42,906 nt of DNA, from assembly GCA_018333635.1 (NCBI GenBank), contig JAGXTL010000002.1, forward strand, positions 1 through 42,906, given 5' to 3'. Origin of the DNA: Dethiobacter sp. (GTDB taxonomy: Bacteria > Bacillota > Dethiobacteria > Dethiobacterales > Dethiobacteraceae). The notes under the pieces were generated by a model that was not told the origin of the DNA, made no database searches, and saw nothing but the letters and a program-made list of their open reading frames with translations. Positions 30,623 to 33,872 of the stretch are shown here, one piece after another (within the stretch, counting starts at the first letter, position 1; the number at the start of each line of letters is the position of its first letter). Both the position numbers and the translations under genes were made by a program.

Positions 30623-30650
30623 TTGCGCGCACTGTTTCTATTGGTATAAT
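30623..30650 (+). promoter_or_regulatory. Promoter for moxR-VWA-cooC operon
   Basis: TTGCGC (30623-30628), a 16-bp spacer and TATAAT (30645-30650) preceded by TGG form a good promoter with an extended -10. It lies 32 bp before the TTG start and rules out the upstream ATG at 30607. Confidence 0.65.
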
Positions 30651-30681
30651 AATACCAGTTTCAAGTGGAAGGGTGAGAGAT

Positions 30682-31572
30682 TTGCTGGATATCTCAATTG
30701 ACAACCTGCGTAAAGCATTTTTCAACGCGGGCTATATCACAGATGAAGACGTGATTATTACTGTTTTTCTGTCCCTCAAGCTGAAAAAACCACTCTTAGT
30801 TGAAGGGGCTCCCGGTGTCGGCAAAACTGAACTTGCGAAAGTGCTCTCCCAAGTGCTTGACGCCGACTTGATTCGTCTGCAATGTTATGAGGGCCTTGAC
30901 GAAAATAAAGCCCTTTACGAGTGGAACTATCAACGCCAGCTTTTGAAAATTCAAATTTCTAAAGAGACGGCTTGCAGCGAAGACTTGGAGCAGAACTTAT
31001 TTTCCCTGGAATATCTTTTGGAGCGTCCGCTCTTAAAAGCCATTCAGGCTGATAAACAAGTGGTACTCTTAATCGATGAAGTTGACAAGACCGACGAAGA
31101 ATTTGAAGCGTTTCTTTTTGAAGTGCTCTCTGATTTTCAAGTTTCAGTGCCTGAGCTTGGCACCATTACTGCTCGCCAAATTCCGGTGGTAATCCTGACC
31201 AGCAACAACGAACGGGAGCTCTCCGACGGGTTAAAACGTCGCTGTGCCTATTTATACCTGGACTATCCTACGGTAGAACGGGAAATTGCTATCATCCGTG
31301 CCAAAATTCCTGCTGTCGGAGAAAAACTGTCGCTCGAAGTAGCCAGAGCCGTATCGTTAATCCGTGACATTCAGGAGATCAAGAAAAAGCCTTCTATCGC
31401 GGAAACTCTAGACTGGGTGAGAGCGATTCTGGCATTAGATCAAGATCGCCTGAACCCTGCGGCCATTGAGCAGACCATGGCCTTGCTCCTCAAAACGAAA
31501 GCAGATCTAGTAATATTTGACAAAAATATTGGTTCCGGCCGACTGGTGGAATACGCACGGACGGAGAAGTGA
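30682..31572 (+). CDS. MoxR-family AAA+ ATPase (CoxD-like)
   Basis: This AAA+ ATPase of the MoxR class probably remodels or loads metal into a target enzyme. The 296 residues carry Walker A in LVEGAPGVGKTELAKVL, Walker B in VVLLIDEVDKTDEEFEAFLF, sensor 1 in IPVVILTSNNERELSDGL, and an arginine-finger region in KRRCAYLYLDYPTVER. The C-terminal lid follows. MoxR proteins work with VWA proteins, and one is encoded directly downstream with overlapping ends. CoxD/CoxE are the closest named analogues because a CODH maturation ATPase follows. The TTG at 30682 follows AAGGGTGAGAGA. The operon runs against the surrounding minus-strand genes. Confidence 0.88.
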   Translation: MLDISIDNLRKAFFNAGYITDEDVIITVFLSLKLKKPLLVEGAPGVGKTELAKVLSQVLDADLIRLQCYEGLDENKALYEWNYQRQLLKIQISKETACSEDLEQNLFSLEYLLERPLLKAIQADKQVVLLIDEVDKTDEEFEAFLFEVLSDFQVSVPELGTITARQIPVVILTSNNERELSDGLKRRCAYLYLDYPTVEREIAIIRAKIPAVGEKLSLEVARAVSLIRDIQEIKKKPSIAETLDWVRAILALDQDRLNPAAIEQTMALLLKTKADLVIFDKNIGSGRLVEYARTEK

Positions 31573-31577
31573 CGGTT

Positions 31578-32915
31578 ATGGAAAACTACCTGGAAGTTAA
31601 CCTGATCCGTTTTATTCACCTATTGCGCCACGCTGGAATTCGCATTGGTAGCGGCGAGGCTCTCGACGCGCTGAATGCCCTCTCTATGCTGGATCTCTCT
31701 GACAGGGAAGCGGTGCGGGCTGGGTTGAAAGCCACCTTAGTTAAACGTTCCGGGGAACAGCAACTCTTCGACAAAGCATTTGCTCTCTTCTTTGCCCCAC
31801 CGGAGACTAAGGAAGAATATTATGCCAACTACCGGCAGGAGCAAAGACAACGACAACAAACACTGACTAAGGCCGCGGAAGAACTGACTTTCCAAGGCAT
31901 GCCCCTCAGGCTGTCAGACAGTGAAAAAACGGTATTTTCCGGCATGCCGGAAAGAGACAAAGAAAAGCTGCTGGAATATATAAAAAAAACTGCTGAAGGG
32001 AAAAATGTAGAAAAGCATTTCCAGCCGATTCTGGAAAGTGTCGTCAAAGGTTCTTTAGCATACTGGCGCAAAAGCCTCCGCAATCAACTTGACCTTACCC
32101 CTTTACCCCAAACAGGAGATGAAGAATTAAATGCTCTATTAGAAAAAACAGAAAGCAACAGTGACGGTTATTCCTCCACTCTCCTTGAGGAGGACATGCA
32201 AAATATCGCCGAAAAAGATCTGCCCCGAGCAGAGGCCTTAATCCGCAAGCTGGCCAGACAAATGGTAACCCGCCTTGCCCGCCGCTACCGGCAGAGTAAA
32301 AAACGACAAAAATTAGATCTGCGAAAAACTATTAGGCACAATATCCGCTTTGGCGGCACACTGCTTAGGCTGCGCTACCGCAGCCGTCGCAGGCAAAAAC
32401 CGCGGCTTGTCTTGCTCTGTGATGTGTCGGGGTCAATGGCTCGTTATGCCAGTTTTGTCCTCCAGTTTATTTACGGTATCAACGATGTAGTCGGCCAAAT
32501 CGAAAGCTTTGTTTTTTCCGAGGACTTGGAGAGAGTAAGCGACTATTTTCAACACAGAGATGATTTTACACTTACAATGCTGGAAGTAATCAAACGTTCA
32601 AAGGAGTGGGGCCGCGGCACTAACCTAGGTGCTGCATTAAAAAGTCTGCGCCTAAAATACCCTGATCTTTTAACAGGACACAGTATTCTCTTGATTGTCA
32701 GCGACACAAAAACGATGGCGCTTGACGAAACAATGCAGGAATTGGCACAAATAAAAAGAATAGTAAAAGATGTTGTCTTATTAAACACTTTGCCTCACGG
32801 CGACTGGCAAAGCAGCAAGTCAGTCCGCTCGTTTCAAGGAGTGCTGCGCATGTACCCGTGCAATACGCTGTCTGACCTCGAAAAGGTTATACGGCAAAAA
32901 ATAATTATCTACTGA
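31578..32915 (+). CDS. CoxE-like VWA-domain protein
   Basis: This 445-residue protein is the expected partner of the MoxR ATPase. The N-terminal half is helical and charged, with LIRFIHLLRHAGIRIGSGEA near the start, as in CoxE-like proteins. A basic segment (RLARRYRQSKKRQKLDLRKT) precedes the VWA domain. That domain has an intact metal-ion-dependent adhesion site: LVLLCDVSGSMARYASFVLQ (DxSxS), the Thr in SKEWGRGTNLGAALKSL and Asp in LLIVSDTKTM. No signal peptide is seen. I prefer the ATG at 31578, 11 nt after GGAG, over the GTG at 31569, which overlaps the moxR stop codon. The target protein is not shown by the sequence. Confidence 0.87.
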   Translation: MENYLEVNLIRFIHLLRHAGIRIGSGEALDALNALSMLDLSDREAVRAGLKATLVKRSGEQQLFDKAFALFFAPPETKEEYYANYRQEQRQRQQTLTKAAEELTFQGMPLRLSDSEKTVFSGMPERDKEKLLEYIKKTAEGKNVEKHFQPILESVVKGSLAYWRKSLRNQLDLTPLPQTGDEELNALLEKTESNSDGYSSTLLEEDMQNIAEKDLPRAEALIRKLARQMVTRLARRYRQSKKRQKLDLRKTIRHNIRFGGTLLRLRYRSRRRQKPRLVLLCDVSGSMARYASFVLQFIYGINDVVGQIESFVFSEDLERVSDYFQHRDDFTLTMLEVIKRSKEWGRGTNLGAALKSLRLKYPDLLTGHSILLIVSDTKTMALDETMQELAQIKRIVKDVVLLNTLPHGDWQSSKSVRSFQGVLRMYPCNTLSDLEKVIRQKIIIY

Positions 32916-32930
32916 CAGGGAGGATTTCCA

Positions 32931-33686
32931 ATGAAACAAATTGCTATCGCCGGTAAAGGAGGCGTTGGTAAAACTACTTTCACGGCACTAATGCTGCGCT
33001 ATTTGCAAAAGAACAAACCGGGTACATCTATTTTGGCAGTTGATGCCGACCCGAATGCCAACTTGAACGAAGCGTTAGGGCTGAAAGTAGAAAATACCAT
33101 GTCATGCCTGCTGGAAGATACCAAAAACCCAAAAGCCATTCCGAGCGGGATGACTAAAGAAATGTATATCGAGTTTAAGATGCAGGACGCACTGGTGGAA
33201 ACAAGTAAAGCATATGACTTACTGGTAATGGGAAATCCTCAAGGCTCGGGATGTTACTGCTATCCCAATGATTTGCTGCGTAAACATCTGGAAAAACTGC
33301 GTACCAACTACGACTATGTGCTTGTTGACAATGAAGCGGGGTTGGAACACCTCAGCCGCAGGATTATCTCCAATGTAGACACACTGATTGTCGTCAGCGA
33401 CGCGGCAGCCCGCAGCATCCGCTCCGCCACCCGAGTCTATGATATTGTAAAAAGTGTAAATTTGGACGTAAAAGAAATCTACCTGGTTGTTACCAAAGTG
33501 ATGAGCAATGAAGTAGAAGACTTGCAGGAAGAAATTCAAAAGACTGGACTCACCTTAATCGGCACGGTGCCTCTAGATCCTATGGTCGCCCAGTTCGATG
33601 TCAAAGGCAAGGCTTTAATTGATTTGCCTGATGAATCTGCTGCTGTACAGGCGGTGGAAGCAATTCTCGGCAAGATCAAGCTTTAA
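32931..33686 (+). CDS. CooC-like nickel-insertion ATPase for CO dehydrogenase
   Basis: This is a MinD/CooC-type P-loop ATPase that in characterised systems inserts nickel into CO dehydrogenase or acetyl-CoA synthase. The deviant Walker A is IAGKGGVGKTTFTALMLRYL, followed by ILAVDADPNANLNEALG. The metal-binding CxC pair is in NPQGSGCYCYPNDLLR, as in CooC. Further family stretches are YDYVLVDNEAGLEHLSRRII and KEIYLVVTKVMSNEVEDL. The length of 251 residues is typical. GGGAGGATTTCCA precedes the ATG, 15 bp after the VWA gene. No CODH/ACS structural genes are in the window, so its client must be elsewhere. Closely related ATPases (CooC, AcsF) cannot be told apart here. Confidence 0.86.
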   Translation: MKQIAIAGKGGVGKTTFTALMLRYLQKNKPGTSILAVDADPNANLNEALGLKVENTMSCLLEDTKNPKAIPSGMTKEMYIEFKMQDALVETSKAYDLLVMGNPQGSGCYCYPNDLLRKHLEKLRTNYDYVLVDNEAGLEHLSRRIISNVDTLIVVSDAAARSIRSATRVYDIVKSVNLDVKEIYLVVTKVMSNEVEDLQEEIQKTGLTLIGTVPLDPMVAQFDVKGKALIDLPDESAAVQAVEAILGKIKL

Positions 33687-33694
33687 TATTTTAA

Positions 33695-33790
33695 GTCCCC
33701 TCTCCCTCCGGAAAAACACCCTTTGTCCCCTCTCCCTCTGGAAAAACCCCCTTTGTCCCCTCTCCCTCTGGGAGAGGGTTAGGGTGAGGG
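33695..33790. repeat. 30-bp tandem repeats with GGGAGAGGG hairpin
   Basis: Two near-identical 30-bp units begin at 33695 and 33725, each starting GTCCCCTCTCCCTC. A third begins at 33755 but runs into a hairpin (CCCTCTCCC 33758-33766, GGGAGAGGG 33770-33778) and then TTAGGGTGAGGG. The hairpin part is the reverse complement of the repeat at 18415-18453. The array starts 9 bp after the cooC-like stop codon. Confidence 0.8.
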
Positions 33791-33839
33791 TTAGGATGAA
33801 GGCAAGGGTGAGGACAATCAAAAGATATTTCCTTAGCAA

Positions 33840-33872
33840 AAACAGCGGCTGGATTTTTATCCGCCGCTGTTT
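33840..33872. terminator. Bidirectional terminator between cooC-like gene and spo0A
   Basis: AAACAGCGGC (33840-33849) pairs with GCCGCTGTTT (33863-33872). T-rich runs follow on both strands (TTTCTCTTT forward, TTTTTGC reverse), so it can end both convergent transcripts. Confidence 0.8.

Follow-up and report, generated by a model that had tools for sequence, protein, structure and literature searches.

The stretch of DNA analysed here, 42,906 nucleotides of a Dethiobacter sp. genome (hereafter the window; GCA_018333635.1, contig JAGXTL010000002.1), carries three plus-strand genes for a MoxR-family AAA+ ATPase, a CoxE-type von Willebrand factor A (VWA) protein and a CooC-type ATPase, which make up one tight operon. 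The pair of MoxR and VWA genes is linked to the nickel enzyme carbon monoxide dehydrogenase/acetyl-CoA synthase (CODH/ACS), and this linkage is well supported. The pair is probably a remodelling complex of the CoxDE/NorQD type for the bacterial CODH/ACS, working with CooC on the maturation of the nickel clusters. A three-protein nickel maturation machine had been put forward in the original prediction; the link to Ni-CODH/ACS, the kinship with Cox proteins and the identity of CooC speak for it, while the notion of a general three-gene unit has to be given up. The three genes are:

30682..31572, plus strand: MoxR-family AAA+ ATPase (CoxD/MadB-like), Pfam AAA_5, probable TTG start.
31578..32915, plus strand: CoxE-type VWA protein with a helical N-terminal part and a C-terminal VWA domain with intact metal ion-dependent adhesion site (MIDAS), PF05762 at E=3.9e-38.
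32931..33686, plus strand: predicted nickel ATPase of the CooC type, akin to those encoded in CODH/ACS operons, with the CxC motif GCYCYPN, assigned by sequence match to CooC and by tree.

Presence, order and strand of the three genes are as had been described, and the term near-overlapping is apt for gaps of 5 bp (MoxR–VWA) and 15 bp (VWA–cooC). The operon lies between steA and spo0A and against their direction, both being on the minus strand and spo0A convergent with cooC. It was also correctly noted that no CODH structural gene is near the operon in the window. Other contigs carry four full-length Ni-CODH genes and an acsF-acsB-acsC-orf7-acsD-acsE operon without cooC between orf7 and acsD; because of these genes the genome is termed acetogen-type. 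A second, archaeal-looking CODH/ACS cluster was seen in the same genome (G000, contig C19; L015:7442-17495). Encoded there are a 908-aa fusion of DUF166 with CODH, a CdhD-like protein, a short CdhC of 395 aa that lacks the N-terminal part, a CO_dh epsilon/CdhB-like subunit and a 768-aa CdhA-like protein of the Prismane family; acsD/acsE-like genes belong to the cluster too.

The linkage was surveyed in 398 phylum genomes, of which nearly all reach a completeness of 90% or more; the window-type VWA protein was called at E<=1e-40. The pair was found in 76 genomes from 29 families. Ni-CODH is present in 75 of these 76 carriers and in 90 of the 322 non-carriers (p=3.5e-33, nominal), and ACS in 71 of the 76, so that the expected correlation with Ni-CODH/ACS was borne out for the MoxR-VWA pair. 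Among the CODH-positive genomes, the pair occurs in 71 of 113 with ACS compared with 4 of 52 without (p=6.7e-12, nominal). In each of the four carriers with CODH and no ACS (G320, G340, G399, G478), one or more CODH genes lie near the end of a contig, and the ACS may therefore have been lost in assembly gaps. A second sample of 42 genomes was picked solely for a VWA homologue, with identity as low as about 30%; it includes gut Oscillospiraceae, Symbiobacterium, Holophagaceae and others, and at least two of its genomes are apparently shared with the first sample. CODH was found in 36 of these genomes, ACS in 34, and one or both in 40.

Comparison within the family of the window revealed which CODH/ACS the pair goes with. 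Six genomes (G072-G075, G082, G083) have CODH and lack MoxR-VWA. The three operons read among them (G072, G073, G082) are clostridial-type acs operons with their own CooC and no pair. The ACS of these three belongs to a clade of ten genomes that has full support and in which the pair is missing throughout. On the ACS tree the label for presence of the pair changes 7 times, against a mean of 19.2 when shuffled. Judging from this clade and these label changes, the pair follows the type of CODH/ACS; some close relatives in the other clade (family f20) are also without it. The predicted Ni-CODH partner thereby appears to hold in a sharper form, as CODH/ACS of one phylogenetic type rather than any Ni-CODH.

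Direct linkage was also observed. G101 and G143 share the gene order crp-CODH-MoxR-VWA (CRP and CODH assigned by Pfam), with no adjoining corrinoid or ACS gene, and in G325 the genes MoxR-VWA-DUF3786-acsF-acsA-acsB-acsC-orf7-cooC follow one another on a single strand with short gaps. The VWA gene of locus L174 lies about 4 kb from acsF-acsA-acsB. The DUF3786 gene between VWA and acsF of the G325 operon is at L145:5232-5855. In 11 loci from outside the class (L121, L128, L130, L133, L134, L135, L137, L139, L141, L144 and L152), a gene for a Crp/Fnr-family regulator lies upstream of the pair; possibly this regulator senses CO or redox state.

In the class sample of 98 genomes of Dethiobacteria, 73 have a VWA match and most of them carry a window-type CooC beside it. 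CooC accompanies MoxR-VWA in 35 of the 36 class loci read (families f1, f2, f4-f8), mostly in one operon, and conservation of the trio thus extends beyond close relatives; in family f8, CooC stands beside the pair on the opposite strand. The position between steA and spo0A, real in the window, was seen only within the genus (L050, L051), and elsewhere in the class the trio is near genes resembling metK, fabZ and recD2 (names judged from sequence). Outside the class only the MoxR-VWA pair is retained. The MoxR gene is directly upstream of the VWA gene in 70 of 77 loci overall, with a median gap of 0 bp, and the neighbourhood of the pair consists mostly of housekeeping genes. The predicted three-gene unit therefore stands within Dethiobacteria and fails in general, since MoxR-VWA alone is the unit across 29 families. 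The conserved unit is the pair, which CooC joins in an operon only in Dethiobacteria. In f33-type genomes, a second, more distant MoxR-VWA pair (~53% / 28% identical) was observed at most about 6 kb from the first (L138:13906-16188; also L155, L158, L164 and L184).

The third gene of the window codes for a Pfam MinD/CooC-type P-loop ATPase with the deviant Walker A motif KGGVGKTT and the motif GCYCYPN. Its best sequence match in the PDB is CooC of C. hydrogenoformans. In the tree the trio CooC and the acs-operon CooC proteins come together, a long, fully supported branch parts them from AcsF/CooC1, and MinD and ParA are far away; the CxC motif is kept in all 36 trio proteins and all 16 acs-operon proteins. 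The identity as CooC is thus supported, and a MinD- or ParA-like protein is rejected by the PDB match and the tree position. All 31 outside-class pair genomes searched have a CooC that is 49-65% identical to that of the window, and in most of the operons read it is encoded between orf7 and acsD with a separate AcsF paralogue at the operon start. The window CooC is about 34% identical to the AcsF of its own genome. It shares ATPase family, P-loop and CxC with the bacterial CODH/ACS-operon CooC and with the paralogue AcsF/CooC1 (PDB 3KJE), and differs from the former in being encoded outside that operon, behind MoxR-VWA. The third gene is therefore the CooC normally encoded inside the CODH/ACS operon (orf7-cooC-acsD), which in Dethiobacteria stands beside MoxR-VWA. 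We infer the direction in which cooC moved between the two places. No other single observation hints as strongly at cooperation of the three proteins as the presence, throughout a class, of an ATPase of the CODH/ACS operon beside MoxR-VWA.

The MoxR protein scores above the Pfam cut-off for AAA_5, and its Walker A, Walker B, sensor and Arg finger residues are invariant across 23 homologues of many families. It is 55% identical to Oligotropha CoxD over 272 aa, and it is by this pairwise identity that it is placed in a CoxD-like subgroup. The VWA protein matches PF05762 (VWA_CoxE) with 131.5 bits (gathering cut-off 26.4), and the MIDAS residues D-x-S-x-S, T and D are invariant in 28 homologues of many families. 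As the ATPase motifs and the MIDAS residues are thus preserved, both look like working proteins. An AlphaFold model of the VWA homologue L148, first row of the alignment, has a pLDDT of 82. Its Foldseek matches include NorD in the NorQD complex (9QHE/9QHG; template modelling score 0.58-0.62, normalised to the target) and the Rea1/MDN1 MIDAS domains, in both cases over just a part of the model. A sequence search of the PDB with the VWA profile gave just one weak, unspecific match.

The best NCBIfam matches of the pair are MadB (NF047784, E=2.6e-80, 269.8 bits) for MoxR and MadC (NF047783, 88.7 bits) for the VWA protein; membership was rejected, as both scores are far under the curated cut-offs of 475 and 600. 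The literature search on MadA/B/C found nothing relevant. A MoxR-VWA pair of the same organisation is found behind the gene mdo for a methanol dehydrogenase dependent on N,N-dimethyl-4-nitrosoaniline, which is another client gene; that pair would correspond to MadB/MadC.

The role generally ascribed to a MoxR protein with a VWA partner is the remodelling of folded metalloenzymes. NorQ-NorD, which activates nitric oxide reductase, has the same MoxR-VWA architecture as the window pair and a different client, non-haem iron being inserted into NO reductase; we know of no CooC-like partner of NorQ-NorD. The Rubisco activase CbbQ-CbbO shares the logic of a MoxR protein with a VWA adaptor, again with a different client. 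In CoxD-CoxE(-CoxF) of Oligotropha/Afipia carboxidovorans, too, MoxR is directly followed by a CoxE-type VWA gene. Together with the MoxR identity given above, the 31% identity of the VWA domains upholds the predicted kinship with CoxD and CoxE. To assemble its Mo/Cu cluster, the aerobic CODH requires CoxD, and CoxE is needed too (PMC4240915). Unlike CoxDEF, the window trio has a CooC-type ATPase as its third gene and not an XdhC-like CoxF, and it tracks Ni-CODH/ACS. One proposal for CooC is a reshaping of the apo-site that allows nickel to bind; dependence on CooC varies, and some proteins of CODH operons are of unclear function (PMC6006190).

In the mechanism that we propose, MoxR and the VWA protein would form a physical complex in which the MoxR ring supplies the force, driven by ATP, and the VWA protein docks the client through its MIDAS. 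The client would be the bacterial-type CODH/ACS, most likely its nickel subunits, and nickel insertion would be the step served: CooC would probably deliver or gate nickel, with MoxR-VWA opening or holding the apo-enzyme in the meantime. The chemistry of the pair is suggested by analogy, as CoxD acts on the Mo/Cu cluster and the VWA model matches NorD.

Several observations weigh against this proposal. The genomes are related and many are drafts, so that the p-values, from counts that ignore kinship, are nominal. The association inside the class is weak (p=0.01) because CODH is near-universal there. Three genomes (G039, G094, G356) carry the pair with no CODH found, and 43 ACS-positive genomes lack the pair, some of them in families that otherwise have it (f20); the pair is thus dispensable for some CODH/ACS. 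It directly adjoins CODH in just two lineages, the third case being at about 4 kb, and some CODHs were reported to mature without a dedicated accessory protein (PMC6006190). As regards the class genomes G094 (contig C102) and G039, both are more than 90% complete with VWA present and no CODH, G094 is also without CooC, and they represent either assembly gaps or real exceptions. The shortened VWA protein of G011 was considered as decay in a CODH-less genome and dropped, the fragment being at a contig end and uninformative.

The main rival to the maturation reading is an activase or repair factor of CODH/ACS, similar to CbbQ-CbbO, which would deal with oxygen, misloaded metal or bound inhibitor and not with first-time nickel insertion. 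It would fit the same gene distribution, and the absence of the pair from many ACS-positive genomes would suit a conditional helper better than an obligatory maturase. However, the nickel ATPase CooC is in the same operon across the whole class, and the assembly of a cluster is what CoxD serves (PMC4240915), which at 55% identity is the nearest of the characterised MoxR proteins compared; we hold such a function to be unlikely, though a serious contender. Somewhat less likely again is that the true client is some other enzyme that accompanies the Wood-Ljungdahl pathway, such as formate dehydrogenase, a hydrogenase, the corrinoid iron-sulfur protein or the activator of the latter, with CODH/ACS merely correlated. 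ACS marks the whole pathway, and the window-type CooC stands between orf7 (activator-like) and acsD (corrinoid protein); yet in G101 and G143 the pair is directly behind CODH with neither a corrinoid nor an ACS gene adjoining, and in G325 it is directly ahead of acsF-acsA-acsB. A general stress or envelope role, as in other MoxR-VWA systems, would explain the co-occurrence by shared strictly anaerobic lineages, and the non-independence of related genomes and the mostly housekeeping neighbours agree with it. The signal, though, reaches across 29 families and into divergent lineages, those of the gut among them; within one family the pair goes with the type of CODH/ACS, and operon linkage is direct in two lineages, which leaves this role very improbable. 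An ordinary CoxDE pair for a molybdenum hydroxylase of the xanthine dehydrogenase/aerobic CODH family, suggested by relatives next to coxMSL in Oligotropha and a xanthine dehydrogenase-type set in Halobaculum, was rejected with near certainty, since no match to PF02738 was found in the window's genome or genus (G000, G078, G079, G080), 27 of 66 class carriers have no such enzyme and no positive association exists.

Two further features of the operon were read from the sequence:

30623..30650, plus strand: putative promoter-like motif TTGCGC-16 nt-TATAAT upstream of the operon.
33840..33872, no strand assigned: inverted repeat AAACAGCGGC...GCCGCTGTTT, a possible terminator between cooC and the convergent spo0A.

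The consensus scan missed the promoter-like motif, and its promoter count in the region is at chance level; the inverted repeat is not among its terminator-like sites. Position 30623, given earlier as the start, is the -35-like part of this motif and no start codon. The longest open reading frame of MoxR begins at ATG 30607; TTG 30682 is probably the start, because homologue alignments begin there and a ribosome-binding site precedes it. ATG 31578 is the probable start of the VWA gene, and cooC is preceded by a strong Shine-Dalgarno sequence. Between cooC and spo0A (33690-33800), short tandem C/T-rich repeats end in a palindromic TCCCTCT-GGGAGAGGG element and, with it, resemble a dispersed intergenic repeat.

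We found no publication linking MoxR or VWA proteins with Ni-CODH in the open-access literature, most subscription papers being outside this search, and there is no such link in two surveys of CODH gene context (PMC13056359, PMC6344411) or in an acetogen pan-genome paper (PMC5039349). Surveys confined to the genes of one operon or directon would overlook the pair in most cases, since its usual place is elsewhere in the genome. What appears to be new is a CoxDE-like pair with a new client. The pair occurs in G140 (G140:C1:1004886-1007007), whose CooC matches C. hydrogenoformans CooC1 (PDB 3KJE) along all 254 residues; the CODHs of C. hydrogenoformans are structural model enzymes, and a genome with an identical CooC thus offers a well-studied organism. 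In the G140 acs operon the CODH gene is broken up into two frames that overlap, one of 158 aa and one of 512 aa (L281:5417-7428).

CODH/ACS is the central enzyme of the Wood-Ljungdahl pathway, and the making of its nickel clusters is unsettled, with CooC and AcsF as known factors. More tentatively than the complex itself, MoxR-VWA could be a core factor, overlooked so far, in the maturation or activation of one large phylogenetic type of bacterial CODH/ACS, in which case the unrelated Mo-Cu and Ni CODHs would share one kind of AAA+/VWA machine. If so, a widespread ATP-driven partner would be a missing maturation or activation factor of CODH/ACS, and its absence could help to explain the trouble in producing this type of CODH/ACS in active form in other hosts.

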